Shown here: positions 2,020 to 58,645 of the stretch, one piece after another
Numbering within the stretch: the first letter of the stretch is position 1
Layout: every line of letters starts with the position of its first letter
Assembly (NCBI GenBank): GCA_030549335.1
Contig: CM060197.1
Location: forward strand, 24,006,501-24,070,500
Direction of reading: 5' to 3'
DNA from: Pontederia crassipes
Taxonomy: Eukaryota > Streptophyta > Magnoliopsida > Commelinales > Pontederiaceae
Length of the DNA stretch: 64,000 nucleotides
Notes under the pieces: generated by a model
Told to the model about the DNA's origin: nothing
What the model saw: the letters and a program-made list of their open reading frames with translations, nothing else
Database searches by the model: none
Translations under genes and position numbers: made by a program

Positions 2020-3905
2020 GTAACACCTAACACCCGAAAAAATAAAATAAAATAAAGTTCAAACAGAATGTAACAGCAATGGACAGCTGTTGTGTGGAGA
2101 AATAAAATCACAGCAATGCACAATTAAATGGGATTTGGCCAATTAAGGAGAGTAAATAGCAGATTTGAAAAAATTAATGGGGTATCAACACCAAAGGTCT
2201 TTGTCTCACCTCCCACATCAGAAAAATTGTGAGTCCCCTGTTACTGCCATCTTAACTCCTAGTGCACCTCACGCACATCTGCAGAAGAAGAGATATTTCA
2301 TCATTTCACAAAAGGGTAGAATAGCAAATGTTCTTTTTGTTCCTCAGTCCTTGACCGCGAGATTCTGCCCTCATAGTTTTTCTCTCCGATTTGGACTGTT
2401 CTGCAAGGGGAGAATTACAGAGAGAAGGAGATTTCGCACAGGGCTGATAGGGAGGAAACGACCACAAGTGATATGAATAATTTCATGCAAGAGTAGACCA
2501 AGACAAGAGGTGAGTGAAATTGTGAAATCCCTCTACATAACTTGAATAAAATTAGGTCAGAATCATAGCTTTGAAAATCTTGTGATATGACACCCGATAG
2601 AATAAAGAAAATGAGAACTAATGGATTGTTTGATTCCCTGATTTTATATTGGTTGTTGATTGTTGATACGAGGGTATTCCCTTTTAATAAATCCTTGTGT
2701 GATGATTGCTTTGAAGTGGTAATTTCATTTAGGATTTAAATCTCCCAAATTTTTTTATCCTGCTCAAAATCTAATACAGGACAACCGGTCGATCGCAGGG
2801 GATCTGTTGACCGATATGCCATAGTCCGCCCATGTGTATAGATCGGTCGATCGATCGTTCCTTCTGAATCGTCCGGCTCGATCGACCGACCGACCGCAGC
2901 CCATGAATGAACCCAGTCTTATCGGTCGACCGATCCAGAGTTATCGGTCGACCGAACCTGACTTTACTTTTTCTTACTATTTAATCTAGACTTTTACATG
3001 ATCATTATCTATTTTCCCTGCTGATTGGTTAGTGGTATAACTGAATCGAATGACTTGTTACTGATCTATTCTTCCAGTGATTCCATCCTTCCTATAGAAC
3101 GAAAGAACGACAAATTGGTAAAGTGGTTAACAAAGAAAGATGAAAAGATAAAGGGTGGATGGTCAGCCCATGCCAAGTGCTTATAGTGAAGGGTCGCTCT
3201 CTTAGCCATGGCTTGATCAACCAATGGCTATACAAGGCTGTAATATTTTGCTCGGTAAAATCCCAAAAAGTTAAAGACACCTAAAGTCACTTAGGCTAAG
3301 AAAAAGGTTCAAGGATAAAGAGATTGTACAAATGATATGAGTATGATGTTAAATGAAGTATGATTATTAATTCCGTATGATAACTGAATCCTTTCATGAT
3401 TAAGATTGTTATATATTATCATAAGACCTCTGCCCTCTTTTATCCATTGATATCTATTCTCAAATGATTTTATGCTCACTACATGATCTTGATAAAGTGC
3501 TTATTGATTCTGACTAATCCTATTTATTCATTATGAATTGAGTAATTATGTTGATTCCTCACTAGACTATATAGCTTACGGAAGAACCTTCTCCCCTGTG
3601 TTAATTTCCACAGGGCCAGGTCATTAATGATGTTGAGATCGTGTGCCGCAACTAAGCTCAGGCGATAATAAAGCACATGAACAAAAAAAGGGCCTAGTTA
3701 TCATTTTCCTTCTTTCCGCATTCATGAACTTTGATGTAATTCAGATGCTATATTTATTATGGAGACTTTGTATTACTTTGAGACTTCCGCTATTATGACA
3801 TTTCTATTTTTCCTCTTTACTCCCATTGCTGACATGTCACTATTTTTAATTGAGTTTTGGTCAAGTTATAGTCAAAGTTGTAGTTTTTCGTAGCGCCTTC
3901 AAATA
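2020..3905 (+). repeat. 5' LTR of element A
   Basis: Starts TGTAACACC, a usual start for Tekay LTRs, and contains the GGTCGACCGA word array at 2784-2955. The right 485 bases match 7697-8172 closely, which identifies the block as an LTR. The right boundary is approximate, because the junction to gag shows no clear primer-binding site. Confidence 0.65.
2784..2955. repeat. GGTCGACCGA word array in LTR of A
   Basis: About eight close copies of the palindromic word TCGGTCGACCGA or its GATCGGTCGATCGA variants, separated by 10-30 bases of unrelated sequence. The same word occurs at 10-115. The position within the LTR corresponds to word arrays in elements B, D, E and G. Confidence 0.75.
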
Positions 3906-3924
3906 CCCATTCACTGAGTCACAA

Positions 3925-6900
3925 ACCTCTAGAGAGGCCGAGGACAGGGTCGTGGTTGAGGCCGCACCACCAGCCGTGGCCGAGGACAAGGCCGTAGCAT
4001 GAGGAGACAAACATAGGAAGAGCATGTTGGTGAGACTGACCCACTTGAGGGCAGTCAAACTAGAGGCAACCAGCCAGCGGCCAGATGTCACACACAGGGA
4101 CCCTGACAAGAGGCTTTGGAAGACACCATCCAGGCATTCCTGAAGCTACATCCGTCACATTTTGATGGCAAGGCAGATTTCATCAAAGCAGAGCAGTGGA
4201 TAGAGACTTTAGACCGCATATTCAAGATGATGAGGTGTGCCGAGGAGCACAAGGTTCTATATGCCATGCATATGATCATTGACACCGCGATGGGATGGTG
4301 GAAGACCACAAGAGCCACAATATTCAGAGGGCTGGAAGAAGAAAAGGTATCCTGGACTGAATTTAAGAAGGCATTTGCTGCTTGGTACACTCCTGAACAC
4401 GATCGGGTCAGTAAACATGAGGAGTTCTTGCAACTTGAGCAAGGAACCATGATAGTTGTAAACTACCATACTCATTTTATTATGCTGAAGCAGTACTGCC
4501 CAATGCCATTTGAAGGGCGCATCAGGGCAAACAAGTTCATCAATGGTCTACAACAGTCACTGAAAATAGAAGTCATCTCAGGGACTGTGATACGCTAGAA
4601 AAGGTAGTGAGACTGGCCACACGGATGGAGAAGGACCAAGCTGAGCGTAAGGCAAAAGCCCCATCCTAAAGGTCGCTGATCGTTCAGGAGGGACGATCAT
4701 CATGGTCGTCGCTATAGGCCCTCCTATCAGAGAGAGGCCCCACAATATGCCCAAGCTCAACAACGTCCAGCACCACTACAGCCCCAGGTATAAAACTTCG
4801 AAATGTTAAGTACTTAAGAATATGTTAAAGATGTGGCAATTAACTCATGATTTAGTGTGATAGCCACTGAGACAGCTGCCACCACCTCCTCGTCAGCCTC
4901 AGCCACAAGCACCTCAGCAGAAGCCCCTCTGCCCTCATTTTGGTCGATATCATGATGGAGAGTATTGCAGGAGAAATGGTTCGTGCATCCAGTGTGGGCA
5001 GTTCGATTATTTTGTTCAAAACTTCCCCTAGTTCGCTAGAGGAGGCCGAGATAATAGGGGTGCAGGAGGCCCCAAACCCATTGTTCAAGGCAGAGTGCAC
5101 AACATGGAGGCAAATGCCGCCCAGAATGATAATGATGTTATCAGAAGTACTCTTCCTATTGTTGACGTATATGTTATTATATTGTTTGATTCGGGGGCCA
5201 CGCACTTGTTTATTTCGGAGTTGTACGCCCAAGCTCTTGGCTTATCCTTACAACAGATGCCACATGCCATGAGGGTGAGCACTCCCATGGGGACCCTTCA
5301 CACGGCTAAGTACATTCCGAATGTACCAGTCACAGTAGAGAAGAAGAATTTTTCTACAGATCTTATTTTCATCCCGATGGCGGACTACAACGTCATTCTA
5401 GTGATGAATTGACTTTCTTATCATGATGCATCTCTACACTGTAAGCAGAAGAAGATCATGATAGGCGCACAGGACAAGCCCAAGGCAATTATCAGAGGTA
5501 CCCTATTAGAAAGCAAGAAGGTGATCGTCTAAGCAATGAAGGCACAAAAGTTGCTCCAGAAAGGATGTTGTGGATATTTAGCAAGTGTGGTCAAGACCGT
5601 TGCACCAGTCACCGCACTGCAACAGATAGATGTGGTGCGTGAGTTTCCGGATGTCTTTTCTGAAGATACTTCAGGATTACCATCGAGGCGCGAGATAGAC
5701 TTCAAGATCGAACTCCTACCTAGAACAGAACCTATCTCCAAGGCACCGTACCGCATGGCACTTGCCGAAATGCAAGAGCTGAAGAAGCAGATACAAGAAT
5801 TGCTAGATAAAGGCTTTATTCGAATGAGTGTCTCACCGTGAGGAGCACCGGTACTGTTTGTTAAAAAGAAGGATGGCTCAATGCGGCTTTGCATTGATTG
5901 CAGGATGCTCAACAAGGCATCAGTATTCTTCGACCTTTGCCCTGCATCGATGACCTCTTCGACCAATTGTCCAAGGCATCAGTATTCTTCAAGATCGACT
6001 TACGTAGCGGCTACCATCAGTTGAGGATCGCTGAGGAAGACATACCGAAGACGGTCTTCTAGTCAAGGATTGGTCATTACGAGTTTTTGGTGATGCTGTT
6101 TAGACTGATAAACACTCCTACAATGTTTATGGATCTAATGAACAGGGTTTTTCGGCCCCATCTGGATCAATTCGTCATCGTGTTTGTGGATGACATCCTA
6201 ATATATTCGTTTAGTCCAGAGCAGCACCGAGAGCATCTCATAATAGTATTAGAGACTCTACGACAGTATAAGCTTTACGGTAAGCTCTCGAAGTGCAAAT
6301 TTTGGTTAAAGAAAATCATGTTTCTTGAACACATAGTATCCAAGAAGGGCATATCAGTGAACCCAGCAAAGTAGAAATAGTGACCAATTGGGCAAGGCCG
6401 AAGAATGCATCCGAGATCCGCAGTTTTCTTGGATTAGTAGGCTATTATAGGAGGTTCATCAGAGATTTTTCTAAAATTGCAGCACCACTCACGAATCTCA
6501 CGAAGAAGGCATAGAAGTTTATCTGGCCAGATAAATGTGAATAGAGCTTCCAGAAATTGAAGGACCGTCTGACATCAGCACCTGTCCTCACCATACCAAC
6601 GGGCAGCGGAGGATATGTAGTCTATAGTGATGCATGTGGGACAGACTTAGGTGTGTACTAATGCAACATGGTAAAGTAGTGGCCTATGCTTCGCGACAAT
6701 TAAAGAAACATGAGGTTAACTACCCCACTCATGAACTTGAGTTAGCTGTAGTGGTTTTTGCTTTGAAGATCTGGAGGCACTATCTGTATGGGGAGACTTT
6801 CGAGATCTTCACAGATCATAAGAGTCTCAAATATATTTTTGACCAGAAGGACCTTAACATGAGGCAATGCCGTTGGTTAGAGCTCCTGAAGAATTATGAA

Positions 6901-7697
6901 TTTGCTATTAATTACCACCCTGACAAAGCAAATTCAGTTGCAGATGCGCTGAGCAGAAAATGGGAAGATTTTTTTTAGGAGATGGGAAGGTTTTTTTTTT
7001 TGAGGAGATGGGAAGGTTCACTAGCTTACATCAGGGTACATGAGTACAAAATGCTACAAGAGATAGATTAGTGGTGTCCAAGACTTGACAATAACGAAGC
7101 TCTATAGATGATGCATCAGATGAGGCCTAGTTTTATTGACAAGATCATATCCGCTCAAAAGGAAGATCCGGAGTACTAGAAAGTATTGAAAAGATGTCAG
7201 AATGAGCTAAAGGATTTTCAGATATTATTAGACGAAGGGATCTGAAATAGGGACAGATTATGAGTTCTCATAGATACAACTATTCGACGTGAAGTAAAAG
7301 ATGAGTGCCATAAGTTTGAGTTTGCCATCCACCCTAGAAGCACCAAGATGTACAAGGATGTACAGCGTAGCTATTGGTGACCCGACATGAAAAAGGAGAT
7401 AGCTGAGTATGTATCAAGATGTCTGGTGTGCCAGCAGGTGAAGATTGAGTACGAGAGACCATATGGAAAATTGAAGGCTCTAGATATTTCACAGTGGAAG
7501 TGGGATAATATCACTATGGATTTTGTATCCAATTTGCCCAGGTCCAAGAAAGGTCATGATGCTATATGGGTAGTAGTGGACAGATTCACGAAGGCAGCAC
7601 ACTTCATCCCTATCTGGTGGAAGCAATCTGTAGAAAGTTTATTAGATCTATACGTGAGAGAGGAGGTCAGATTACTGACCGAGACCCAGAGTTTATA
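3925..7697 (+). pseudogene. gag-pol remnant of element A
   Basis: Seen in order: an arginine/glycine-rich gag start near 3930, a capsid-like gag core at 4110-4600 (FLKLHPSHFDG), a CCHC-like region near 4920-5010, an aspartic protease (LFDSGATH near 5186), reverse transcriptase with FVDD at 6183-6194, RNase H at 6600-6970 (TDHKSLKY), and the front of integrase at 7300-7697. An AT-rich spacer lies in gag at about 4790-4860. Known: these are the parts of a Ty3/gypsy polyprotein. Broken beyond function. Confidence 0.85.
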
Positions 7698-8208
7698 AGA
7701 CCTCTGCCCTCTTTTATCCATTGATATCTATTCTCAAATGATTTTATGCTCACTACCTGATCTTGATAAAGTGCTTATTGATTCTGACTAATCCTATTTA
7801 TTCATTATGCATTGAATAATTATATTGATTCTCCACTAGGCTATATAGTTTAAGGGGGGACCTTCTCCCCTGTGTTGATTTTCACATGACCATGTCAGTG
7901 ATGATATTGAGATCGTATGTCGCGACCAAGCTCAGGCGATAATACAACACATGAAAAAAAATGGCCTAGTTATCAATTTTCTTCTTTCCGCATTCATGAA
8001 CTTTGACGTACAGATGCTATATTTATTATGGAGACTTTGTATTATTTTGAGACTTCCGCTATTATGACATTTCTATTTTTTCTCTTTACTCCCATTGCTG
8101 ACATGTCATTATTTTTAATTGAGTTTTGGTCAAATTATAGTCAAAGTTGTAAATTTTCGTAGCGCCTCAAATAAATTCTCGTCACGTGGCGTTGGTCGAT
8201 TTGGAAGC
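7697..8208 (+). repeat. 3' LTR portion of element A
   Basis: The first 475 bases repeat 3420-3905 with scattered differences. The remainder (TCACGTGGCG near 8182) matches the end of the D-element LTR near 36230. The left part of this LTR is absent. Confidence 0.75.
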
Positions 8209-11200: not shown

Positions 11201-11205
11201 TTTAT

Positions 11206-12429: not shown

Positions 12430-13024
12430 TTATTATCTAAATTTAACACCCTGAATTTCACCCCAAAATTGCCAAGGACAATTAGATCATTTGGTTGTGT
12501 TAGCCCGTTCGCCATCACATAATCATAATAAAATATCACCATCACATAAGCATAATAAAATATGATTTTGATTTAAATCAGTGGGAACATAAATCATTAT
12601 ATAAGGTAAAAGAATCCTTCAATAAAATGCGAAAAACTTCATTAAGCATCAAAGTATTGTTATAGAATTGAAAACATCACTAAATGCAATTAAAACATCA
12701 TAAAATCATAGTCAAATGCCATTAGAGGAAACAATTTAAAATCATAGTCTATCAAACTTAACACTTGACTTTAACTCCTAGATTAGTGTGCAATCTTATT
12801 CGTCATGAGCTGAGCACCATCATCCATGACTTTATGCACCTGCATGGATTCAGGATATAGGGGTTTCCCCGATTAGAGTATGTAAAAGTCGTACTATGCG
12901 ATGATGCTAAATAGGATACTACATGATATACATCATCTTTATATAAAAGAAATAACAATATGCATATCATGCTCTATACATAAGATCTACATGTCACTCT
13001 TCAATAAAAATCTATCATCATTGT

Positions 13025-13292
13025 CTTTATAAATAATAGCATGGAGGACATGTAATCATCATCATACTCATATCATCATACTCATAGTATGGATATTTAT
13101 AGCATTCATTCATTCAATCCATAGGCTTATAAATGAGATACACTTACCATAATCATTGCCTCTTGCCTTTATAAATAATAGCATGGAGAACATGTAATCA
13201 TCATCATACTCATAGTATGGATATTCATAGTATCATTCATTCAATCCATAGACTTATAAGTGAGTTACAATTACGATAATCATTGCCTTCAT
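13025..13292. repeat. 142-bp tandem duplication in LTR of B
   Basis: The unit starting CTTTATAAATAATAGCATGG at 13025 recurs at 13167 with few differences (GGAGGACATG versus GGAGAACATG). The other LTR of the same element has one copy at about 19914-20035, so the duplication arose after insertion. Confidence 0.85.
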
Positions 13293-13744
13293 AACTCTCC
13301 TCAGGTTTGCTTTATAACCCTTTGGACTTTCACATTCGTGAGACATCATTCCATTCCATCGATCATTGACACTTTCCTATTAACATTATATCTTCCGATA
13401 GTTGAAATTTATTTCGTTGCCCTCTCAATAGGCTACCTAGGCCTAGGAGACAATGCTCTCCTCTCGCCCGAATGTGACATCAGAATGCACACACTGTTGT
13501 CGATACACATAACAATTATTCCAAGCAAATATCCGATAAAGGGTCATAGAGGGTCAGCATGTAACATCATCCATAATTGGGTTCATTATGCTTTTTACAA
13601 ATATTTACATCGCTCAATCTTCATATTTTAACCTAGTTATAAGGGGAACATACATATACGTGTATCTAGATTATTATATAATCAACAAACATCAATACAT
13701 AGTATCAATATCTTCAAAACAACTTTTAAAATACTATAATAAAA

Positions 13745-13965
13745 GTCTGTCACAATGAAGACCGTGATAAAGGCCGTCACGACCGTGATAGAAGCCCATA
13801 AATACCATCCACCAGTCACGATCGTGCCTCTAGTCGTTACGATCGTGCATGATCTGTCACGACCGTGACATAAACTATCACGGGCGTGACAGGCCCCTTA
13901 TTCTTTCCATCATTCTAGCCCTTTTATCACGGGCGTGACATGCGCGTCACGGCCGTGACCGAGCG
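13745..13965. repeat. TCACGGCCGTGA word array in LTR of B
   Basis: About ten copies of TCACGRYCGTGA-type words, several perfectly palindromic (TCACGGCCGTGA near 13950), separated by unrelated spacers of 8-40 bases. The same array occupies the same place in the other LTR (20571-20785) and in the LTR at 57191-59187. Confidence 0.88.
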
Positions 13966-14513
13966 CTGGAAACTGCGTCGCCGGCCCAATTTTTCACGAT
14001 TTTTGATCCAAAAATTGAGAAAAATAATAGATAATAATCAGAAATTGAACATATGTATTTCCTAGGCATTCTATGATCAAAAGAACATGGGAAAACATAT
14101 TAATCCATGAATTTCTAAGATTTAGGGTACATCCCTAAACCATGAACAATAAAAAAAACATGAATCCTAGTTATTAGATATAATCATAAAAATCTATACA
14201 TGCATAGATCTAATGCTTTCAACAATAAACACCCTCATCACAATCCAATCTGAGGGCAAGGAGTCCTCAATCCAATCGTGAAATATCATTGAGAGAGGAG
14301 AGAGGGATTTGGATCCTCTTTACATACATTTCTTTAAGATCCTTCTCCTCTTTCTTCCTCTTCTCCATTCTCCATGTTCTTCTCTTATTCCTTCCTCAAG
14401 CCCTAGTCGCCAAGATGTGGAGAAAGGAGGTAAACAATAGGAATAGAGGGCTTCATATAAGAGAGATTACGAGGGTTTGGACAAAATGTTTAAATTACCT
14501 TTAATGGAAAATC

Positions 14514-17500: not shown

Positions 17501-19230
17501 ATATATATATATATATTGTATTTATACACATATACATATATTAATTAATATACAGATGCATATCCATATACCTATACTTATTAATTATTATTAGATTGGT
17601 AACAATATATATATATATATATATAAAAATATAGTAATTATTGTTTATGTAGGTGACATATCTATATTTGTATTCATAATTTGGCGCCGCAATAGGGTCG
17701 CATTAGCGCCGACGAAGTTAGCATCACATTGGAGTCTCATTAGCATCAAAATGTGGTCACGCAGAATGTCAGAGCCTCTACAACGCCTGTAAAGATGCTG
17801 ATGCGGGCAGCCTTTATTTAGCAACTTGATTGCCTTTATGGAGGAAATCATCATCTTATTTTCTTTTGATGGAATCCTACGAAAAATCACAGAACTTCCA
17901 TCTTTTCTATCTATTTGTACCTTCTTCTCTCGGCATCTCAAATGATTGTCATGGTAAGATAATCAATCCATGTCTAGAATAACATCGTAGTCTACCTAGC
18001 ACTACAAGATCAGTAAAGTAATTTACTCCTTCAATCATAACTGATGTCTCTGGGAGGTACTACCTGGTGGAGACCCTCCCAATTGTGGAGTTGTTATGTC
18101 TAGCTGCCACTTTATATTTACTCTCTCAACATTTAACAGATCAACAAATACAGACGATATGAAGGAATGAGTAGCACCAGAATCAATCAATACATTTGCA
18201 TAGTGATAGGCGACAAGGAGATTACCTTAAATCACATCATTAAAATTCTGGGCCTCATCCACTTGCATGGTATAGACCCTTCCAGGTACTCTCTATTAGC
18301 CTTTAGCTTTGCCCTTGCCCTTGTATTGGTACTCGAGCTTTTTCTCAGTACAGTTCCTAGCAAAGTGGCCCATCTTGTCACAGTTGAGACATGCCCCTGA
18401 TTTCATCCTACATTCACCAGGATCGAACTTGTGGCAGAAAGAACATGGATTGCGTCCTTGTCCACCATCGCCTTTAGAGTAGGGCTTGGAGTCCTTATAC
18501 TTTTTGCCTTTGTGCTTCTTCTGGTCCTTCCTGAACTCCTTACCTTTTTCATGCTTCTTTTGTTCATCAATCTCCCTAGCCAAGTTGGTTGCCAAGGAGA
18601 TAGCTTTTGCCATGATTTCAGGATCCCCACACTTCACATTTATCCTTAGGCGAGAATTCAGCCCCTTCAAGAAGTGGTCAATCCTGATCTTTTCATCATT
18701 CTTCAGTGGGCTATACCACTCAAGCTCTAAAGACTTATTGAGGTACTCTTCAACATACATGCTTTCTTGCTGCAAATTCATGAATTCAGTAGTATTCTTC
18801 CCTTGTACATGTTAAAGAAGGTAATGGTTCTTGAAGGCATTCTTGAACTCCCATCAAGTGATCTTTGCCTCATCATCAAACTGGACTTCCAACAGTGACG
18901 AGCTCTGTCAGTGAGTTGATGCATGGCCAAATTGACCCTATGCCTTTTAGAGCAATCCATTGCTCTAAATTTTTCAGTGATCACATCCAGCCAAGTTTCA
19001 GCCTTTTTTGGATTCCTATCCCCATTGAAAGTAGTGGGATGCAACTTCAGGAACCTCTCGATTCTTGAACCCGACCGGCTAGAGTGGCCCGAGTCCGCAT
19101 TCCTTTTCATTGTCCGCGCCATGCGGGTCATGCTTTCAATGAGCTCTCGCTGGTCTCTTGAAGTATTGGAGGGACCACCGTGTTCCATCCATCTCATAAC
19201 AATAATTAACCAACATAAGTTAATCAATTT
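14600..19230 (-). pseudogene. gag-pol-chromodomain remnant of element B
   Basis: Reading on the minus strand from right to left: gag 18296-19227 (FLKLHPTTFNGD) with a CCHC knuckle CLNCDKMGHFARNC near 18350-18400, protease DSGATHSF near 18160-18187, reverse transcriptase 16500-17380 with FVDDILIY near 16838, RNase H 16100-16420, integrase 15130-16074 (DRDSKF, HPQSDGQSERT) and a chromodomain at 14608-14750 (YEEYPIEILEHRERRLRNK). Known: an integrase-linked chromodomain defines chromoviruses and directs integration to heterochromatin; this variant matches Tekay/Del. Broken by many changes. Confidence 0.88.
17460..17812. mobile_element. Insertion inside element B
   Basis: About 350 bp that do not resemble Tekay sequence lie between the protease and reverse transcriptase parts. 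The right half has GC-bearing repeats (GCATTAGCGCC, GTTAGCATCAC, CATTAGCATC); the left half is a TA-rich stretch. Within it an 8-bp repeat ATGTAGGT at 17469-17476 and 17647-17654 brackets about 170 bp of AT-rich sequence, which suggests a small DNA element nested in a larger one. Class not determined. Confidence 0.45.
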
Positions 19231-19363: not shown

Positions 19364-21332
19364 ATAACACCCCGAATTTCACTCCCAAATTGCCAAGGAC
19401 AATAGGGTAATTCGGTTGTGTAAGCCTATTCGCCATCACAAAATCATAATAAAATATGATTTTGATTTAAATCAACGGAAACATAAATCATTATATAAGG
19501 TAAAAGAATCTTTCAATAAAATGTGGAAACCTTCATTACGCATCAAAGTACTGTTATAGAATTGAAAACATCACTAAATGCAATTAAAATATTTTAAAAC
19601 CATAGTCAAATGCCATTAGAGGAAACACTTTAAAATCATAGTCTATCACACCCAATACTTGACTCTAAATCCTAGACTAGTGTGCGATCTTATTCGTTTT
19701 GCCATCATCCATAATTTTATGCACCTGCACGAATTCAGGATGTAGAGGTTTCCCCGGTTAGAGTATGTAAAAGTCATACAATGTGATGTGATGATATTAA
19801 ACATGATACTACATGATATGCATCATGTTTATATAAAAGAAATAACAATATGCATGCCATGCTCTATACACAAGATCTACATGTCACTCATGAATAAAAA
19901 TCTATCATCATGTCTTTATAAATAATAGCATGGAGGACATGTAATCATCATCATACTCATAGTATGGATATTCATAGCATTCATTCATTCAATCCATAGG
20001 CTTATAAGTGAGATACGTTTATCATAACTATTACCTCCATAATTCTTCTCGGGGTTGCTTTATAACCCTTTGGACTTTCACTTTCATGGGACATCATTCC
20101 ATTCCATCGATCACTGTCACTTTCCTATTAACATTATATCTTTCGATAGCTGAGATTTATGTCATTGTCCTCTCAATAGGCTAGCTAGGCCTAGGAGACA
20201 ATGCTCCCCTCTCACCCGAAGGTGATATCAGGATGCACACACTATTGCCAATGCATGTAACGTTCATTCTGGACTCCCACCCGAGGGTGACATCGGATTG
20301 CACACACCGTTGTCGATGTGTGTAACGATTATTTTGAGAAAATATTCGATAAAGGGCCATAGAAGGTCGATATGTAATATCATCTACAATTGGGTTCATT
20401 ATGCTTTGTAATCAATAAATATTTACATCGCTCAATCTTCATATTTTAACCTAGTTACATAGGAAGCATACATATACATGTATCTAAATTATTATACAAT
20501 CAACAAACAACAATACATAGTATCAATACCTTCAAAATAACCTTTTAAAATACTATAATAAAAGTCTGTCACAGCCACGACCGTGATAAAGACCGTCACG
20601 ATTGTGACAGAAGCCCAAAAATATCATCCACCCTGTCATGGTCGTGCCTCCAATCGACACGGCTGTGCCTGATCTGTCACGGTCGTGACATAAACTGTCA
20701 CGGACGTGACGGCCCCTTATTCTTTTCGCCATTCTAGCCTTTCTGTCACGAGCGTGACATGCGCATCACGACCGTGACCGAGCATTGGAAACTACGCCGC
20801 CAGCTCGATTTTTTATCCAAATATTGAGGAAAATGATACATAATAATCAGAAATAAAACATATGTATTTCCTAGACATTCTCGGATCAAAAGAACATGGA
20901 AAAACATATTAATCCATCAATTTCTAAGATTTAGGGTTCATCCCTAAACCATGAACAATAAGAAAAAAAATATAAATCATAACTATTAGATCTAATCATA
21001 AGAACCTATACATGCAAAGATCTAATTCTTTCAATAATAAACACCCTCATCACAATTCAATATGAAGGCAAGGAGTCCTCATCCTCTCAATCCAATCGTG
21101 AAAAATCAGAGAGATTTGGATTCCCTTTACATACCTTTCTTTGAGATCCTTCTCCTCTTTCTTCCTCTTCTTCCTTCTTCCTCTTCTTCTCTTTCTCCTT
21201 CCTCAAGCCCTAGCCGCTAAGATGTGGAGAAATGAGGTAAACTATAGGAATTGAGAGCTTTATATATGGGAGATAATGAGGGTTTGAACAAAAAATCTAA
21301 ATTACCCTTAATGTAAAATCAGGGGTGTCACA
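19364..21332 (-). repeat. 5' LTR of element B
   Basis: Pairs with 12443-14513. On the minus strand it starts TGTGACACCCC at 21332 and ends at 19364, with the body to the left. It contains two tandem copies of an approximately 80-bp unit (CTCTCACCCGAAGGTGAT... at 20207-20330), where the left LTR has one. Confidence 0.9.
20571..20785. repeat. TCACGGCCGTGA word array, second LTR of B
   Basis: Same words and order as 13745-13965, with base changes in individual words (for example TCACGATTGTGA, TCATGGTCGTG). Confidence 0.85.
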
Positions 21333-25625: not shown

Positions 25626-25767
25626 CATTTTGATACAATTCATTTAAGAATCATCAAGTAACACTAAGAGGTCATATAAAATATCTTTAGACAATTATAA
25701 GTTTAATTCATGGTTATCATATCACATGATTTTAATTCAATAGTAAAAACATAGAACATTTCTGATA

Positions 25768-27254: not shown

Positions 27255-28170
27255 TATAGTGTCATATGCCAAATGCCCTTCAACTTTGACGTTTGCTCCG
27301 TGATACCCTCAAACTTCACTTTGTAACACGAATGCCCTTCATCTTTGAACTCGTTTCACCCGGTGCCCTTTTTACCTATGATCGGCCATCTCCCGATTGC
27401 CCCATCAATGTGGCATCCATACGGTCATTTTCTCTCTCCTCCATAGAAGAAGCCATTCGATGTGACATTTCTTTCTCTTACATGGCATGATTAAATAATA
27501 AAAAAAGAGAAGGCGACCTCCGGCGGCCTTGCCGACATCGGAGGGAGGGGGTGGGGGGGGGGGGGGGGGCGGCTCGTCGACGTCGAACGCGAGGGGCCTT
27601 GCCCCTCCTCTGCGACCTCCGACACTCGCCAAAGGACGCAAAAGGGGGGCGAGGACCCCCTTGCATGCGTCAGTGCACCTCCCTCTGCGTCCTCCGATGA
27701 GCGTCGGAGGTCGTAGAAGGGGGGGGGGGGGGAGGAGGCCCCCCTTCGACGCAAAGAAAGGGGGGCCTCGCCCCCTTGCGTCCTTCGACGAGCGCCGGTG
27801 GTCGCAAAAAGGGGGGGGAGTCCCCGTTGTCTACGTGCGTCGCCGCAGACAAAGGGGGAGAGAGATTATATTCTTATTTTATTATTATATTTTAAATTTT
27901 TTATTATTATATTCTTATTTTATTATTTGATATTTTTTATTAATTTGCTGGTGTGGAGTTTGCGTGGCAATGCCACGTCGGATGCTCTCCTGCGTGGTGG
28001 AGAGAGAGCGTCGCTACGTCAACAAAGTGACCAGAAATCGAGTATTCTTAGTCGGAAGAGCATTTCGTGAAACAAATTATATGATGGAGGGCATTCATGT
28101 TACAAAGTGAAGTTGAAGGATTGCACTAGAAAAATAGTCAAAGTTAGAGGGCATTTGGCATAATTTACCC
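27255..28170. mobile_element. Mutator-like element, GC-rich core
   Basis: Seen: long imperfect terminal inverted repeats (left TGCCAAATGCCCTTCAACTT, right the reverse complement of TGCCAAATGCCCTCTAACTT). Homology extends about 100 bp inward on each side (CTTCACTTTGTAACA, TTTGTTTCACG-like). The core at 27520-27850 is extremely GC-rich, with two poly-G runs (27546-27568 and 27719-27731), then an ATT-rich run at 27862-27945. The element at 31980-34048 has the same terminal repeats, GC-rich core and ATT run. No 9-bp target repeat could be matched here. Long proline or glycine frames in the core are composition effects. Confidence 0.6.
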
Positions 28171-31530: not shown

Positions 31531-32999
31531 TATTATTATAATAATTTGATCCCGAATGCAAGGTATTAAAATACTAATTTTTCCTCAACAATATGAGCAT
31601 TACCTCTCTCGTCCTAACCTTGAGTCCATTTTTTTTGAATTAATCAAACATCTAAACTTTTGTTCCAATTTCGTTGACTATTGCAATTTGTATGGCATTT
31701 CAAGAAATATTTTAATCATTCCATTTACGCCGCAACTCGATCGAGTAGCAAATTTTAATATTAAGATGATGTAACTGTTTTTGAATATATATATATATAT
31801 ATTATTTTATTCATGTGACAACTTGGTGGATTCTATTCTGCTCTTGACCTTTGCAAGACGAGCCGCACCTATCATATTGGAGATGAATTAGATCTTTGCA
31901 ACATGGAGATAAAATATTCAATTTATAATGGCAAGGCGTGAGCTCCTATCTTTTCATTGAGAGGTGACTTGCGAATTTTGGAGTAAATCACGAGAAATGC
32001 CCTCAATTTTGACGTTTCCATACTTTTCAACTTTAATTTATAACATTAATGTCCTTCATCTTTTAACTCATTGCACCGAATATTTTTTTCACTATTAATC
32101 ACCCATTCCCCGATTGCTCCGCTCTCCGCCACATAGGCAAGCATAGCACAACTACGTAGACTACTTTTCACGTCAATAAATTATTAATAAATATAAAATA
32201 ATAAAATAAAAATATAATAATAAAAAAGGAGGGGTGCTCCCTCCCACCCCCACCTTACCGACGATGGAGAAGAGAGGGGGAAGGGGGCGGCGCACCCTCA
32301 CCCCGCGCGCAGATGGGGAGGACCGCCTCCCCCTCTCTTCTACGACAAGTGGGTGGCGCCCCTCCCCCCACGACTCCCCCTCTGTACGGGGTGGCGCTCC
32401 TTCCCTCTCTCCTCTCCACAGAGGGGGAGGTGGGTGGCGCCCCTCCTCCCGCACGCAAGGGGGAGTGCTGCCTCCCACCTCTCTTCTCACCGGAGAAGAG
32501 AAGGGGTGGGGGGTGGGGGATGCGCCCTTCCCCTCCTCAGTGCATAGGATGCTACGCCCCTCCTTTATGGTGCAGGAGAGGATTGGCCGTTAGGTGGACC
32601 ATAACTCGTCCACCATGCAGGGCAAAGGCACCATGGGAAGCAAAGGCTCGGGCTCAAATATCAATAGCAGCCAACCAGTCCTTTGATAGAGGAAAGAAGA
32701 GCACACTCTTATATCAATTCATCGATGGTAAGCAAGTATGATGGTGGGATGAACCAAATCATCAATAGTAACTGATTTCTTGATTGCATGGCTTTTGCTG
32801 TTATACGGTATTGTTCGAAATGAAATGACACAATATTATTTTTATACATGCCCAAGTGATGGAAAACAAACAATATCTTTTACTTAGTCCATTTTCTTTT
32901 TCGAGGTCTCAAAAATATTTTGGAAACTCAGAATCGTAAATGGATTCGGGTACCATAAAAAAAAGATAGAGAAGATCGCCAAGATTTCATGATCCCCTG

Positions 33000-36277: not shown

Positions 36278-37264
36278 TTAACGTGACGGCATTTTTATGT
36301 CTTATTGTCCTTATAATCCTATGATGTCATATACATGGTGCCATGAGCAGTCACTACACCACCTGAAGTCAAGTAAGTTTATCCTTCATTCATAAGTCTA
36401 ATGATTTCTATGTTTGCTATTGATGTATGATGATGTAGTACCTCCATGACGGGATCCTACTGTTAGAGGTCATGGCCGAGGCCGAATCGTGGTAGAGCAG
36501 CCAATGCTAAACATTAAGGGACAATTCAGAATGGTATACAAATTAGTCAGGCTCATTAAGAGGAGCCAATAGTTCAACCTCCACCAGTGCAGCCTTCACA
36601 CGTCTAAGGACGTCATTCAGGCATTCCTCAAATTACAACCACCATAGTTTGATAGCAATGAATTTGACATGGCTGAGAGGTGCTTAGAGGTATGAAGGAA
36701 ATATGCAGTGAAGATAAGATGGTCCATCATGCGACCAACCGGCTAACTGATGATGTTTTGGACTAGTGGAGAACCACCATGGACACCAAGTTCGAAGGTC
36801 AAGACACTATTACCTAGAAATGCTTCCATGAAATATTTGAGGAAAGGTACTTTCCGAAGTACCAACATGCCTAGAAGTAGGAGTTCCTAGAACTAAGGTA
36901 AAGTCACATGATGGTTCCTCAATACCATATCCAGTTCATTCACCTAGAGAGTAAAGGGCATATCTTTTTTTTTTCAAAGGCCTGAATACTTCCACCAAGA
37001 ATATTCAAACTTGAGTGTGACACTCGATCTCACAACCACGATAGAGAAGAAATATGATAGGGAAAAAATTGAAGGATATGAAGGGAAATGCCCCAATGCA
37101 GTTCACGAAATAGAATCAACCCAAGTAGAACGATCAACACTAGAATCGGGATCCCAACAGAAGCAACAATCGAGCTCCGGGTAAAGAAGATGAATGAGAA
37201 GTTAAGATGTTAAGATGTTAAGATGTTCATGATTAAAATAGTTAATTGATTATCAATTGCAACC

Positions 37265-37878
37265 GTGGTTCACAAATTCTCGAGTTTGACACTTAAACTC
37301 TTACGAGTTCACGAGTTTTGCTATAAAATCGAGTGAACTAAGAGTGGAATCGTACTTGGTTGTAAACTCAAGTAGAATCTAGTGGACTCGAATAGACTCG
37401 AGTAAACTCAAATAAAATTGCGTAAACTCAACTGGGTTTACAGGTAGAATCATCAGATGCAAAAGTTAAACATTTAACCAAGATTTGAAGTCAAAATTGA
37501 AATAAAAATAGCATCAAACATTCGTGATTTAACAACTAAAAATGTTTTATGTTTTAATTTGTATGACTCATGGACTACTTTAGTAATTTGATGTGTAAAC
37601 TTTGAACTCTTTATGTTTCAACATGTTTTGCATTAACTTATATATTGTATGTGTAGAGTGATGAATTGTTAAAAATAATGAATGGTTATGCAATTCAATA
37701 TGAGTGAGTTGAAATATGACAAATGAACTCATTACAAACTAACATATAGAAATTATTTTTCACAAATATTTTATAACATATAATATTAAAAACGTATATA
37801 TAAACTCTACGAGTTCACATTTCGAGTTTACCAGATGTAAAACGTATCTACATAAACGCTCGATTTTGAAAACCTTGA
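37265..37878. mobile_element. hAT-type non-autonomous element in D (1)
   Basis: Flanked by TTGCAACC (37257-37264) and TCGCAACC (37879-37886), 7 of 8 identical, as for hAT 8-bp target repeats. Left end GTGGTTCACAAATTCTCGAG, right end reverse complement CAAGGTTTTCAAAATCGAG. Near both ends there are repeated ACTCGAGT / GAGTTTAC words in opposite orientations, with an AT-rich centre. No transposase. It lies in the AT-rich spacer of D's gag. Confidence 0.6.
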
Positions 37879-42264: not shown

Positions 42265-43066
42265 GCATTTAAAATCTTCTGGATGAGCCTTTTGAATTCT
42301 CTCACGTTCTTGACTTCAAAAGTCTGGTTGCAAACTCTAGCATCATGTTTTTTGACTGTAGAAGGCTTCTATTTATAAGAGTTTGAGTTTTCATGTGATT
42401 GGAGAAGAAACGAAAATTTTTTCCTATTTAAAGCAAGGTAAATTCGGAGTATAATTGATTATGAAATTTTGGCCTTGTCAAACTTCGAAATTTGGACCAT
42501 ATGTTTCTAAATCATATTGAGATCCTATTATATGAGTAGGAATCCTTGTGCAATTAAAATTATTTTAAAATTTTATCCAAAACTCGAATACTTCATCACG
42601 GTCTGTTACGATGATTTAACGACCTAACAGGGTCCGAATCGAATTAAAAATTAGATTTCCTGGCCTATGACTCTGTTTTCATGACTGTTACAATGTGGAA
42701 AAATATGGATTTCACGACCCGTGAAAGTTTGGTCACGGTCGTGATTCGGGACAACTCGAAATGCATTTTAAATACCTGTTAATGAGTTTCACATCCCTTT
42801 TCATGCCCCGTGACTGTACCATTTCAGTCTTGCTTCATTGTTTTCCACTTTCTTACTCTGTTTTAACTCTGATTTGAGCACGATTTTTTTTTTGCTTCTT
42901 AATTTATTTTTCTTGCTTCCTAAACAATTAAAATATAATATTTGGATAGATTTTCATTTTTTTAAAATTAATGCAAATAAATCCATAAAATGATGCACGC
43001 TATTAGAAAATTATTCGAAATGAGATAAATATATTACTAAATATATGTTATATTTTGCATGCATCA
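42265..43066 (-). repeat. Partial 3' LTR of element E
   Basis: Matches 48019-48774. Its remaining part is missing where the local duplication copy 2 abuts. Confidence 0.8.
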
Positions 43067-44199: not shown

Positions 44200-45575
44200 A
44201 ACTCCTTCGAGCTTCGTAAATGGCCTTCATTTGGAAACTTCAGTGAACATAATAACTCCATGGTGCTCGACTCGTGGGAGGGGCACCACTGCTACTCCTC
44301 GGGACAACTAAACTGGGATGGGGAGTCTTCTTCAACAACTGACGGTGATGATGAACGGGTGCTGGTAACGGCCATGAAAAATGGTTAATGACTTGTGAGA
44401 ATCTCATCACAAGGCGTGATAGAAAGATAACGGTCCTCGTGATGTGGTGTTCATGCCTCTTGTAGTGTGTAGGGAAGTCTGGTCGGTTGTTGTCATGGGT
44501 CATGAAATCTCACTAGTCGATGCAGCGCTAAAAGTTAGAAGCCATTAGTTGAAGAAAATTGGCAGAGCCAGGAGGTCGTCGTTGCGGACGCCAAGGGTGC
44601 AAGTGAAGAATCTGATCTTCGCTGGTGAAAATAGGGCGGCCTGCTGTTGGCCGCCGGAGAAATCATCAAAGTTCGCCACACTGGTACACACACGTGATGG
44701 GTCGCTGGAGTTGTGGACGATGGACATCATCATTTTGGATGCCGAAGAAGATGAAGGCGCTTGCTGAAGTCTCTCAGTGTTGTCGACGAAGATGTAGGAG
44801 CCAAGCTGGTCGGGGCCGGTCTTGACATCACAATTCTCGGGCAGAGAGAAGAAAGGGGCGGCATTGCTAGGTCATCAATCAAAGATCATCGACGCCATGG
44901 AAGTCCCTGCCGGCATGGATGAGGTCGATGTGTGGAGGTCAGCGCTAGGGGCCTTGCTGTTGGTTGGAGGTCGCGTCGGTGCCGAAGGTCAAAGGCGGTG
45001 GACAGAGTGTCGGTGCCTGCTGGGTGATGTGGCGTGAAAGAGCAACATCACGGACCTGCATATAAATACCAAACACAGAGGGGGTCATGAACAAGATTCT
45101 CACGGGGTGTGAGAAATAAATGGGGTTTGGATGGATGATGGGAAGTTTCACGGAGCTGATATATCAAGTTACGAAACATGAGTAATGTGTGTTGGCGGTA
45201 GCCCATAAGGTGTTGCCACGTATACTTCATAAAGAGAGGAATAATAGGTGTTTAACGGCTCGTGAAGGTGTCCTAACGGCCCATGAAGAGATATAACATC
45301 TCGTGAAAAAGTGTAGGGTCATGAATCGAGCAAAACCCGTGATGAGTTCCGTGAGAGCAAATGCATCTATTGGGTGACCCGTGAGATTTGTGTAATGACT
45401 TGTGATAGATGAAAAGTTGGGTCTAAACCTACCGTGAGACTCGTGACAGCTTGGTAATGCCCCGTGAAACTTGAGATTTTCATAAAAATAGTTACTGTGA
45501 TCATTGTGATGGATGGTGCACGACCTGTAAGTAAAAAATAACGCCCGTGATATGTAAATAACGGTCTGTGACACA
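44200..45575. other. GC-richer interior of E with CGTGA words
   Basis: 44200-45060 is GC-richer than the surroundings, with no protein I recognise on either strand. 45240-45575 and 44390-44470 hold about a dozen loose words such as AACGGCCCATGA, CGTGAGACTCGTGA and ACGCCCGTGA, akin to the words in this element's LTR (42595-42830 and 48350-48540). Confidence 0.5.
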
Positions 45576-46055
45576 ATTTTTTTTTGAACCTACAAACGAT
45601 GATCAATAAAAATAACAAAAATAAAAATTAAACAACTAAGACACTAAATTAAGAAAAATAAAAACTAATCTAATCAAATGAAAATTAAAATGTCAAAGAA
45701 TAGTTTAATTTAATGTCATTAGCTTACTTTGACATGCATATGCTGAGAATTAATAAATTAGAATAAATACATGAATTTGCAGTTAAGGAACAATCTCACC
45801 GGAATTATTTGATGTGATCATAAACGTTAGATGTGGTGAGGCTCAACACATGTAGTGGTGGATGACGCTCAATGTCTCCACCCTTGTGTCATCATCCAGT
45901 GGTGGAGATTCTTCAAGTTCAGCAATGTTCTTATATGGAAGTTGGGAGTTGTGTTGCTTATTGTCGTGGATAGTAGTGATTTGCCACTGGACTGATGTAG
46001 TTGGAGTCTTTGGCATCAGTAATGTGTGTCTCTTCTTTTATTTAATTTGCCACTG

Positions 46056-47124: not shown

Positions 47125-47128
47125 AATT

Positions 47129-48774
47129 TGATGCGAGAATTAATAACAATTAAATGCTAACAAGTGCACTAGTCACTCAAGTAATAAAGTGTAATGAGTA
47201 GAGTGTCGAACCCATGAAGAATCAACTTACTTAACTAAACTAATTTCAGAGGCTAATAGGAGACAACATGGTTTGGGTAAAAGATGTGCAGAAAATAAAA
47301 TTACAGAAAACTAGATAATAAAAATAAATTAATCTAATCTAATCTACTGATGCATAGGGCTTAAGATGATAACAAAAATTGTAGACAAACTTAACTGAAC
47401 AAATATTATAAGTTAGTCTCTAACGACGGATTAGAGTCTACTCAAATTATTTATTTCCATCGAGGTTTAGCCAACCCATCTTAATTCAAATTAGATTAAG
47501 ACTACTCTGTCGTGGATCATAATCTAATCAAACATGATATTAAGATGCATTAAAATGTATTCTCTAAACTATTATCACCCATATCATGGTAATGATTAAT
47601 AGACCGCACAACTAATATTCCATCAAATATCATACGAGTTGTGATATGCAATACTTGGACTTAAAAGTCAAGAATCAATTTCATAGAAATCATGCAATCA
47701 AAAGTAACTACTCATACAAGGATGATAGCTACCTATAGAAGGCAATTAATCTTTAAAAAAAAACATTAATAATAGTATGCATATTCGAAAGAAAACTGAA
47801 CTATAATCGATTACGAAATATGGTTTAATAGTTTGTCTTTATATATTAAAACTATTACAATAGTCTCAAATAGAAAATAAAACTAAAAAATCCAAATTAC
47901 TAAAGATAGAATAATGTATCAAGTAAGTATGAGATCATCCCAACATGAAATAGAACAAGGATTACTCTCAAGAATGTCGATGAATTGCTACATGGTCCTC
48001 GTCTAGAGTCAATTGTGCAGAAATCTTTTTGGTGAGCCCTCTGAATTCTCTCACATTCTTGGCTTCAAAAGTCTGGTTGCAGACTCTAGCATGATCTCTA
48101 CTATAGAAGGCCTCTATTTATAGGGGTTCAAGTTTCCATATGATTGGAGAAGAAACAGAAACATTTTCCTATTCAAAACAAGGAAATTCGGAGTATAATT
48201 GATTCTACAATTTTAATCTTGTCAAATTTTGAAATTTAGAACATAATGTTGTTTGCAAATCATCTTGGGATCATATAGTATGAGTAGGAATCCTTGTGCA
48301 ATTGAAATTCTTCCGAACTTTCCTCCAAAACTCGAATATGGGCTTTATCACGACCTTTTACGATGATTTAACGACATAAAAAGGGTCCGAATCGGATTAA
48401 AAATAGGATTTCACAGACTGTGACTGCGTTTTCACGGCCCTTACAATGTGAAAAATATGAATTTCACAGTCCGTGAAAGTCTAGTTTCAAAGCCCGATAA
48501 AGTTCGTTTATGGTTCGTGACTGTGCCATTTCAGCCTTTCTTCACTATTTCTCACTTTCTGACTCCGTTTTAACTTTGATTTGAGCGAATTTTCTCTGTT
48601 GGCTTCGTAGTTCAATTTTCTTGCTTCCTAGAAATGAAATACAATATTTAGGTAGATTTCCATTTTTTTAAAAATTAATATAAATAAGTCCATAAAATGA
48701 TGCATTCTATTAGAAAATGATTTGAAATGAGAATAAATGTATTACTAAATATATGTTATATTTTGCATGCATCA
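47129..48774 (-). repeat. 5' LTR of element E
   Basis: About 1.65 kb, ends TGATGC / GCATCA on the minus strand. Contains the TTTCACGACCCGTGAAA-like words at 48350-48540. It could also have served as the 3' LTR of F, since F's body ends exactly at its right edge. Confidence 0.78.
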
Positions 48775-54836: not shown

Positions 54837-55425
54837 GTTCGGATTGAAGATGTGAACTTCACTTTTTTTTCATTTCCAACTTTATGGTGAGTCCCATTTA
54901 TTTCACTTTCTACTTAATATCACATATTGTATTTTCAAATATCACTTATTTCTATTTCTACTTAATATCATCACCTTTTCATAACAAAAAGTAAATTAAT
55001 TTAAATGATTTTATTATTATTTTAAAAACTTTTCATTTCAGTTTTTATTACTATATATAATCTAATTTATATTATATCAAGATATTATATAAATAATTAT
55101 TTATATTAATTTATATTATATTAAGATATTATTTAAATAATTATTATATTAATTGTTTATATTAAATATTATTAATTACTGTTTATTGTTAATATTATTT
55201 GTTAAACTATTTTTATAATTATTTTAAATAATAATAAATTATACTAGTATTTAAATAAAAGATTTACTGTATTATAATAAATTATACTAGTATTTATATC
55301 TATAGTTCTTACTTTTTATTCAAACACTCACTAAAACTTATCTGTCAAATTAACTTTTCTATCTAATCGATTAATTTTCGAGAACTAATAAAAACTTAAG
55401 TTCATCCATCCAAACACAGCCATGG
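54837..55425. mobile_element. Probable MITE
   Basis: Left end TTCGGATTGAAGATGTGAAC and the reverse complement of the right end (GGCTGTGTTTGGATGGATGAAC) align loosely. The interior includes GTGAGTCCCATTTATTTCAC and then AT-rich sequence. GTGTTTGGATGG-type ends are common in plant MITEs. A target duplication was not found, so the boundaries are approximate. Confidence 0.4.
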
Positions 55426-55859
55426 AGGAGGCATTAGGGGCCTCCATATAAATGTTCCTATTTAGATTCCTTCCTTGTTCCATATGTTTGTGAATCCTTC
55501 TTTCCCTTTTAAGGTTTCTCTCAAACTCTATATCAAATCCTAGACCACCCTCTAGCTAAGAAAATCCTTTTGCACTAGTATGAGGGTGTTTACCTTTTCT
55601 CTTTGACATAAAAATAGGATTAATAGGTTAGTGTATAAACAAAGTCCCAGAAAAAGATATTGACAAAAATGGAAATCAAATACAAGGAAAAAATTAACAG
55701 AGTATATAAATATAAAAGAAATGAATCAACAAAATTTAACAAAAAGAATGTTATAAACATAGTATGGAAAAAAACTCAATAAATCTCACGACAAGTATCA
55801 TATTAGAGTTAAACATCGTTGTATGAAAGCCTTTCACTAATGGTATCAAAGCCGCTCTA

Positions 55860-57190
55860 AGTCCGTCTTTCGGCCTCACTCGGCACTGAACATCGGGCTC
55901 TTGAACGTAACTCAACGGTCACTCCATCTCTCAACACACATGACTCTCAAGTGAGAGATGTTGGCATCTAAAGCATAATAGTTTCTCGAATATGAAAACT
56001 GCTCCACATATGGGAGAACAAAGAAGAACTCGAGTCTGCCTCTCGGCTGACCCCTTGGCAATCGATGATTCCTTGGGCATATCATAGCACCAACACAATA
56101 TGTCGACTCACATAACTTAGCTAGGAAAATGTTTACCTTCTCAGGTGGGAATCACAGAAGCCAAAAAATGAAGATTGTTCGAATGAAAAGTATGTCATGA
56201 CAAGAATAGAGGATGACTGAAAAAGTCTTGATCTCTTTCTGATTAAACTCAGCTCAAACCCCTACCTCTCTACGTTGGGGTTAGTGCGAAGGAAACCTCT
56301 CGGGCCAAGGCACATCAGACCAACAGATAGAGAAACAAATTTGACATTCTTGAGAAATACCACACCAAACGGAACCAAGAAATTAAATACTAAACCAACT
56401 AGAATAGATAAATGTCTGTTGCAGTAACTTAAATTCAGTAAAAAAATGTTGAGAAATAGTTTAATCCATCAACAAATTCCTTGGCTATGTAGTTACGCAT
56501 TAAATGGGAGGATGCTACAAATGAAAAGAGGAAAAGAGAAAATATAGAAGCGTCCGTCCGCTTGAATATGGAATCCGCAAAGTGGGATCCGGAACTGCTT
56601 TGCTCAGCAGCATCCTTCTTGCTTTCATACTAGTGTTCATTGTGCCACCTGTCCACGCGCCCTTGTCTACGTTTGCCACAAAAGGTGCTAGAGGAAGCTT
56701 CTGGCAAAAAGGAATCTGTATGTGGCAAGGATCTGTCCTCTTTCTTCCTCTAAATAAATAAGTGGCGGCACCTCCCCCTCAAGTGCCCTATCTGTTGCCT
56801 TCATTCCAGACGATTTGTCCTTTGCCTCTATAGTCAACTGAAACTTCTATATGAAAACAAATAAAACTAGTAATGTATCACATGAATGACAAATCACTAT
56901 TTCTATAAAAAAAAATAATGCGGAGAAATCATAGAACCTACAAAACGATCGTAAAGTATGTATTCGAGTATGAAAATATAAAATATATAAAAAAAATGCA
57001 TGATGAATATAGAGCAAAAGTATATGTAATTTCTTCACAACAATACTCCATGTGTTTTTCTATGTTCTATGATACAATGGCACGTGCTTCAATGTTATAT
57101 TTTAATCCCTTTAGAGTGAACCTTAAATCATCAAAAGCCTCTGTCTGCTATGGTTAGATTGTGACAAGAATGTTAGTAGGTATTATGAGT
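55860..57190. other. Unassigned stretch with promoter-like patch
   Basis: No gene recognised. 56560-56830 is GC-richer. It holds AGAAGCTTCTGG-like (56693-56703, a partial heat-shock element GAAnnTTC) about 50 bp before TCTAAATAAATA (56749-56760). No convincing reading frame follows, so any promoter reading is speculative. Confidence 0.3.
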
Positions 57191-58016
57191 GTAATACCCC
57201 AAATTTTATCCTCAAATTGCAAAGGATAATTGGGTCATTCATTTGTGTCTGTTTGTCATTATATAATTATAATAAAATATAATTTTTTATAAATTCAGCG
57301 GAAGCATAAAATTATTAAATAAGATAAAAAAACTCTTCAATTAATGTAGAAAATTTCATGAAAACATCAAAGTACGGTTATAGAATTGAAAATATCACTA
57401 AAAGAAACATCTTAAAACATAGTCAAATGCCATCGGCGGAAACATTTAAAATCATAGTCTATCAGACTCAACACTTGAACTCCTAGACCAGTGTGCAATC
57501 ATTTCGTCATGAACTGAGCCACCATCCATCCAAAGCACTATGCATCTACACAGATTCAGGATGTAGAAGTTTCCCTGTTAGAGTATGTAACGATCATACA
57601 TGCGATGGTATGATCATAAACAGGATATTATATGATATGCATCATCATCTTTATATAAAAGAGGTAACAATATGCATGTCATGTGTTAACATATGAACTA
57701 CATGTCATTCATTCGTTCATTCCTACCATCATGCGATAATTAAAAGCATGGAAACATGTGGTCAATTCATCATACATAAAGTATGGACATTCATAATATT
57801 CATTCGATCCATAGGCATATAAGTGAGATACACTTACCATAACTATTGCCTCCATAACTCTCATCAGGACTACTTTATAACCCTTTGGACTTCCACTTTC
57901 GTTGGACTTCATTACATTCGATCGATCATTGGCCCTTTCCTATTAATGTTATATCTTCCGATAATTGGGACTTATGTTGTTGCCCTCTCAATAGGCTAAG
58001 TAGACCTAGGAGCTAA

Positions 58017-58200
58017 TGCTCCCCTCTCACCTGAAGGTGACATCAGAATGAAGTGATCATTCTGAACTCTCGCCCAAGGGCGACTTCAGAATGCGCACAC
58101 CGTTGCCGATGTGTGTAACGATCATTCCGGACTCTCGCCCGAAGGCGACATTAGAATGCACGCACCATTGCTATTGTGTGTAACGATCATTGCAGACAAT
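58017..58200. repeat. About 80-bp unit repeated in LTR
   Basis: A unit of the type CTCTCGCCCGAAGGCGACATCAGAATGC...GTGTGTAACGATCATT occurs about two and a half to three times here, twice in the right LTR of B (20207-20330) and once in its left LTR (13470-13520). Confidence 0.75.
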
Positions 58201-58429
58201 TATCAGATAAAGGGCCATAGAGGATCAACATGTAACATCATCCACAACTGAGTTCATTATGCTTTGCAATCAATAAACATTTATGCCGCTCAATCTTCAT
58301 GTTTTAACCTAGTTACGCGGGAACATGCATATATATGTATCTAGGTTCATATGTAATTATCAAGCATCAATACATACTAATATTACTTTGAAAATAACAT
58401 TTAAAAGATTATAATATATGTTTATCACT

Positions 58430-58645
58430 ATCACGGCCGTGATATAGGTTGTCACGGCCGTGACATAAGCACTAACAAATCCATTCCCTCTGTCACGGTC
58501 GTGCATAAAAGTGTCACGGTCATCCCTACTCTGTCACGACCGTGACATAAGTTTTCATGATCATGCCAGAGGCCATGTCTTAGCCATTTTTCCAATCTTT
58601 CTATCACGGGCGTGACATGTGTGTCACGGTTGTGACCGAGCACTG
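58430..58645. repeat. TCACGGCCGTGA word array in lone LTR
   Basis: About nine words including TCACGGCCGTGA twice, TCACGACCGTGA and TCACGGGCGTGA, in the same order as in the LTRs of B. Confidence 0.88.

Follow-up and report, generated by a model that had tools for sequence, protein, structure and literature searches.

The closest described counterparts of the arrays reported here are the repeated motif (RM) boxes of Sireviruses, a genus of Ty1/copia retrotransposons. According to that description (Bousios et al. 2010, PMC2829016), arrays of RM boxes in the long terminal repeat (LTR) form predicted CpG islands, and the RM motif is specific to Sireviruses and lacking in classic Ty1/copia elements. 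Clusters of palindromes have also been reported for copia elements, and a role as silencing targets has been put forward for those of maize Sireviruses (PMC10760457, PMC5311732). A further parallel is provided by the motif arrays of VANDAL transposons, which are bound by the protein VANC (Hosaka et al. 2017, PMC5735166). Here we analysed a window of 64,000 bases from Pontederia crassipes (assembly GCA_030549335.1, 1.13 Gb in 43 contigs; contig CM060197.1, positions 24,006,501 to 24,070,500), in which the LTRs of elements that we call A, B, C and E carry arrays of short palindromic words. Judged by sequence, the kind of array known from Ty1/copia Sireviruses is present here in Ty3/gypsy families. 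Our preferred interpretation, of moderate confidence, is that the arrays serve their retrotransposons as cis-regulatory modules: clusters of dyads to which a DNA-binding protein, dimeric and probably of the host, would attach.

As in Sireviruses, the words are clustered, high in copy number, dyad symmetric and CpG containing (PMC2829016). The CGG-CCG core of the Sirevirus RM occurs in the words of A and E and in CACGGCCGTG, whereas the middle pair of the B and C word varies, so that many B and C words lack the core on one side. Sireviruses have a second RM cluster at the envelope gene; here, a second cluster lies inside element E. By contrast, RM carriers are Ty1/copia elements, whereas A and B are Ty3/gypsy elements, and the Sirevirus TATA box lies approximately 37 bp after the cluster, whereas here it lies at least 180 bp after it in E, has candidates on both sides in B and was not found in most copies of A. 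The spacing of words in doublets, described below, is a feature of the arrays here that does not appear in the available parts of the Sirevirus description. The palindrome clusters of copia elements occupy the same kind of location, in LTR regulatory regions, but are tied to small-RNA mapping (PMC10760457, PMC5311732); the arrays here were analysed by sequence. VANDAL motifs are similarly short, non-coding and different between related elements. However, VANDALs are DNA transposons with an element-encoded reader, of which we identified none in the open-frame pieces scanned here, and their quoted motifs are not dyads; these motifs are also largely private to related elements (PMC5735166), whereas the A word occurs in six groups of unrelated flanks and the B word in several. 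We met no description of palindromic arrays in plant Ty3/gypsy LTRs in the literature searched, which left subscription journals mostly outside and is thus weak evidence of absence, and a search with four word spellings returned nothing on LTRs among the matches listed.

The LTR pairs (for A, a partial pair) were called by comparing the window with itself, and the A LTR was extended using genome copies and terminal sequence. The features are as follows.

10 to 116, no strand: A-type words at the left edge of the window, which probably belong to a further LTR (of six A-word matches outside the mapped LTRs, four lie here)
2019 to 3905, plus strand: 5' LTR of A (right part, 3421-3905, pairs with 7695-8173; homology to genome copies; TG start at 2019)
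2784 to 2960, no strand: A word array (TCGGTCGACCGA and variants)
4107 to 4595, plus strand: A gag piece (Retrotrans_gag, Ty3_capsid; Pfam scan)
5032 to 6371, plus strand: A protease and reverse transcriptase pieces in broken frames (RVP_2 at 5032-5409, RVT_1 at 6063-6371)
12444 to 14513, minus strand: B LTR (self-comparison; genome copies share its end points)
13756 to 13958, no strand: B word array (TCACGNNCGTGA)
18299 to 18811, minus strand: B gag piece (zf-CCHC above the cut-off, Retrotrans_gag below it)
19365 to 21320, minus strand: second B LTR (self-comparison)
20569 to 20777, no strand: B word array of the second LTR
42283 to 43066, minus strand: E LTR (paired with the second E LTR by self-comparison)
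42595 to 42815, no strand: E word array (TCACGNNNCGTGA)
45040 to 45580, no strand: E-type word array internal to element E (best dyad above 40/40 shuffles)
48031 to 48774, minus strand: second E LTR
48410 to 48521, no strand: E word array of the second LTR
57191 to 59150, minus strand: C, a lone LTR that is a relative of the B LTRs, at 72-76% along most of its length and at 83% in one part
58431 to 58635, no strand: C word array (TCACGNNCGTGA)

Some genome copies of the A LTR extend to 2020-2028, and the strand of the E LTRs was taken from their TATA box and terminal sequence. The assignment to Ty3/gypsy covers A and B: A by its predicted domains, and B by its zinc knuckle, its gag match below the cut-off and its pol DNA, which is 67% identical to that of A. 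The words of A and B nevertheless differ. A and B may resemble Tekay elements, and E may resemble Tat/Ogre elements.

The original prediction, made from the letters of this window, had placed arrays in A, B (twice), the lone LTR, D, G and E. Each array was scored for its best dyad word and for its best 10-mer, and the two scores were compared with those of 40 dinucleotide shuffles. The arrays are genuine in A, both B LTRs, C and both E LTRs, in which both measures beat 40/40 shuffles. The dyad finder located seven sites in A, eight and seven in B, seven in C and only three and three in E, and the 10-mer finder eight in A, eight and nine in B, ten in C and six and six in E. D was weak and was dropped, as its dyad was matched by 5/40 shuffles, though its best 10-mer was matched by 0/40; for the one near-full-length relative of D, 8/40 and 6/40 shuffles reached its scores. 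G was borderline and was also set aside, with 1/40 shuffles reaching the score on both measures; genome matches to the G flank query start near window position 25,763, which places the G array outside that repeat.

The words are dyads (TCGGTCGACCGA in A, TCACGNNCGTGA in B and C, and TCACGNNNCGTGA in E), and the arrays are composed of variants rather than identical spellings; the exact spellings first quoted are scarce, with one to five occurrences each on both strands. With at most one mismatch, TCACGNNCGTGA has 22 matches in the window, 21 of them within the mapped LTRs, which make up 9,880 of the 64,000 bases, and the reversed word has none. TCGGTCGACCGA has 12 matches with at most two mismatches (six in LTRs, four at the left edge, 10-105; reversed word, zero), and TCACGNNNCGTGA has seven with at most one mismatch (three in LTRs; reversed word, one). 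A sliding scan counted 8 word copies in A, 9 and 9 in B, 10 in C and 6 and 5 in E, against a maximum of 7 among 765 shuffled windows. Windows outside these LTRs also reached at least seven copies, namely those at 27501 (9), at 32251, 37001, 45001 and 56001 (7 each) and at 59001/59251 (14, 13), and some of these are simple or coding-like repeats. Word repetition per se is not confined to LTRs. The A and B dyads are largely restricted to LTRs, and the E dyad is less so, with words also inside the element. A second genome copy has E-type words there too, eight of them at up to four mismatches in the corresponding 1.4 kb.

Two further stretches of the window were observed during these scans. The top repeated word at 59001-59500 (CCAGCCTCCA, 13-14 copies) forms a short-unit, non-palindromic repeat beside LTR C. 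A possible further array, absent from the original prediction, lies at 37260-37480 and has a ACTCGAGT-like dyad (best CGAGT..ACTCG, four sites, reached by 0/40 shuffles).

Genome copies yielded the same words when each array was given blind to the dyad finder. TCACG..CGTGA was the top dyad in 16/27 B, 12/20 divergent B and 14/21 C arrays, CGGTCGACCG in 16/30 A arrays, and TCACG...CGTGA or CACGG.CCGTG in 15/19 E arrays; most of the remaining top dyads were shifted or CpG-decayed forms of the same words. One copy of the B family (L024) had TTACG..CGTAA instead of TCACG..CGTGA as its best dyad. Concerted word change along an array was considered and rejected, with TTACG..CGTAA on top in 0/20 further divergent arrays.

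We next consider whether words are more conserved than their spacers. Word columns were defined on half of the copies, and identity was scored on the other half against shifts of the word mask, using 30/30 loci for A, 27/30 for B and 19 rows for E (17 of the 38 other listed matches plus both window LTRs). Three B loci, L006, L015 and L021, had no words nearby (an insertion, missing homology and a deletion there) and were also left out of the dyad-finder, substitution, spacing-alternation and indel counts. Words had a higher identity than spacers in B, in both half-tests (0/200 shifts reached the word value, twice), in both half-tests of A (4/241 and 3/241) and in the first half-test of E (0/229), although the anchoring of alignments on repeated words may inflate this difference. 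At non-CpG positions of B, words scored 0.843 and 0.767 and spacers 0.671 and 0.578; the CpGs of B words scored 0.662 and 0.670. The CpGs of A words reached 0.801 and 0.828, compared with 0.591 and 0.614 for spacer CpGs, which occupy only six and eight columns. The A of TCACG differed in 18/600 arm letters of B, against 129/600 for the CpG C, and word CpGs carried C-to-T and G-to-A changes, as expected of methylated CpG. These substitution counts used words aligned without large gaps and with at most five differences (300/376 in B, 148/168 in C, 175/270 in A and 66/76 in E), a filter that raises apparent conservation.

Although the spacers are nearly random between clusters of like spacers (0.434 versus 0.398 shuffled for the A word; 0.452 versus 0.427 for the B word), the distance between words is not arbitrary. 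Within a search range of 12 to 42 bp, and with one distance counted per spacer cluster, the start-to-start distance was 20-23 bp in 25/35 A-word and 31/51 B-word clusters, and 39-42 bp in 16/51 B-word clusters. Of the 100 rows listed per word, 50 on the plus strand were used for A and 82 for B; those left out by eye were other-strand or repeated entries. In whole sampled arrays, neighbours were 19-23 bp apart in 81/156 (A word) and 28/46 (B word) cases. Short and long gaps alternated more than in shuffled order in samples of both words from contig C1 (p 0.0002 for the A word and 0.0046 for the B word; the copies are related, so the arrays behind these p-values are not independent), and likewise in B, divergent B and C. 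We read this as a tendency of the words, except in family A, to pair as doublets at a distance that would correspond to about two helical turns.

The words had been predicted to be family-specific, which is not supported. Twenty GGTCGACC places sampled on C1 had 3 to 17 words each, and their word-masked flanks formed six groups; A belonged to one of them. Ten CACGGNCGTG places had 3 to 10 words each and, together with B, C and E, gave nine flank groups, an upper bound based on 251-381 bases. All of these places are on C1 and had been selected as holding one or more close pairs of words. The A word has CGGTCGACCG as its core, and this is also the RM of a grapevine Sirevirus (Table 3 of PMC2829016). 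Given this match and the same words amid unrelated flanks, the words are not family signatures. One locus on C1 (L137, C1:1196880-1197580) has A-type (3) and B-type (2) words together.

Throughout the genome, TCACGGCCGTGA occurs 2,624 times and its reversal 15 times; close pairs were counted 12,782 times for GGTCGACC and 6 times for its reversal, and 1,849 times for CACGGNCGTG, with 2 for the reversed control. Because retrotransposon copying inflates such counts, the pair counts indicate spread and not selection. Read by eye, C1 has identical or nearly identical spacers at intervals of 5.6-5.9 kb (such as 1,211,575/1,217,506, 2,428,450/2,434,140 and 3,429,851/3,435,630), as would be expected of the two LTRs of one element. 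Among eight stretches between array places on C1, L131 alone had matches to Ty3/gypsy reverse transcriptase, RNase H and integrase; the scanned pieces of four had no retroelement domain, and in three no open frame reached 80 codons. With no domain match in seven of the eight, several other array-bearing families may be non-autonomous. L126, L127 and L132 (C1:1213300-1216000, 2430200-2432900 and 2894400-2897100) have little or no open frame, and the flanks of their paired arrays group with A, which suggests that they are non-autonomous relatives.

The dyad form of the words, their conservation above spacers in A and B, the preferred spacing, the doublets outside family A and the sharing between families all point to a cis-regulatory function. 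Each dyad would suit one protein dimer, and because neighbours are preferentially 20-23 bp apart, two dimers would occupy one face of the DNA. As the same words occur in families with otherwise unrelated LTRs, the reading protein is probably host-encoded. Binding would most likely activate or de-repress LTR transcription. The binding-site interpretation in the original prediction is therefore the one that the evidence best supports, but not its family-specific factor.

Several observations weigh against this interpretation. Family A has no alternation of gaps (p 0.878), the 45-47 bp mode of A-word arrays does not equal whole helical turns, and the three-turn distance (31-32 bp) is rare. Indels per base in doublet spacers were not clearly rarer than elsewhere, which gives no clear sign of a tighter constraint within doublets. 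The second half-test of E was unclear, with 38/168 shifts reaching word identity, so that the greater conservation of words is consistent in A and B and divided in E. The position of the array relative to the promoter is mixed across families. The array lies approximately 765-940 bp from the LTR start in A (of 1,887 bp), 555-757 in B (of 2,070) and 250-470 in the first E LTR (of 784). E favours the interpretation, as its TATA box, 688 and 651 bp into the LTR, follows the array at approximately 180-290 bp. In A, a TATA box was not found in most copies (6/26 at best). The best-kept TATA-like site of B (25/29 copies) is near the LTR start, ahead of the array, and two further sites lie past it (15/20 and 17/22 copies).

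One alternative is that the arrays are silencing targets: palindromic words would cause LTR transcripts to fold and give rise to small RNAs, and CG/CHG sites would be recognized and methylated by the host. Consistent with this, the sense strand of the arrays folds better than its dinucleotide shuffles (mean z -5.07 in B, -3.20 in C, -3.95 in A and -1.66 in E; n = 6 copies each), and an excess of small RNAs was reported over the palindrome clusters of maize Sireviruses (PMC10760457, PMC5311732). However, self-complementary words inevitably fold well, whatever their role, hairpins do not require a spacing rule, and a pure target is expected to be lost rather than conserved. The model also presupposes transcription of the array, and we consider it unlikely.

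The arrays could also be relics of tandem duplication, in which a unit of approximately 21 bp was copied and both words and spacing are functionless leftovers. Such a unit would leave a pitch of approximately 21 bp, and adjacent A spacers look loosely alike by eye. Duplication may have been the origin of the arrays. As an explanation of their present state it is rather improbable, as words are kept and spacers are not in the half-tests of A and B, and clusters at one pitch have near-random spacers.

We give still less credence to element-encoded anti-silencing, in which a protein of each family would read its own word and lift silencing, as VANC does for VANDAL. In its favour, the arrays consist of short non-coding motifs that differ between related elements, as A and B do, and an extra open reading frame structurally like double-stranded-RNA-binding proteins is reported for sunflower Tekay elements (PMC12844716). 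However, families with unrelated flanks have words in common, and the Pfam-scanned open-frame pieces, beyond which no wider search was made, contained no candidate protein.

Pairing of the words within or between genomic RNA molecules, as in dimerization, is hardly credible, even though the words are self-complementary and the TATA-like site near the LTR start of B would place the array within the transcript: the TATA box of E is downstream of the array, CpG C changes in B are equal between arms (66/300 and 63/300) and thus give no sign of tolerated G-U pairs, and complementary changes in both arms, mostly at CpG, occur at 0.0167 within against 0.0134 across words of the same LTR in B, 0.0176/0.0101 in C, 0.0133/0.0176 in A and 0.0173/0.0083 in E, leaving neither covariation nor strand asymmetry beyond CpG decay.

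Extending the cis-regulatory interpretation, we tentatively propose, while thinking it somewhat doubtful, that unrelated Ty3/gypsy families and Ty1/copia Sireviruses across plants independently adopted the same grammar of dyads in doublets through one conserved family of dimeric host proteins, and that related elements, such as A and B, can swap the word and keep the pitch. If the cis-regulatory interpretation is true, a trait assigned to a single copia genus has a wider distribution, and a short sequence grammar that the host reads would help to account for the activation of common plant retrotransposons.

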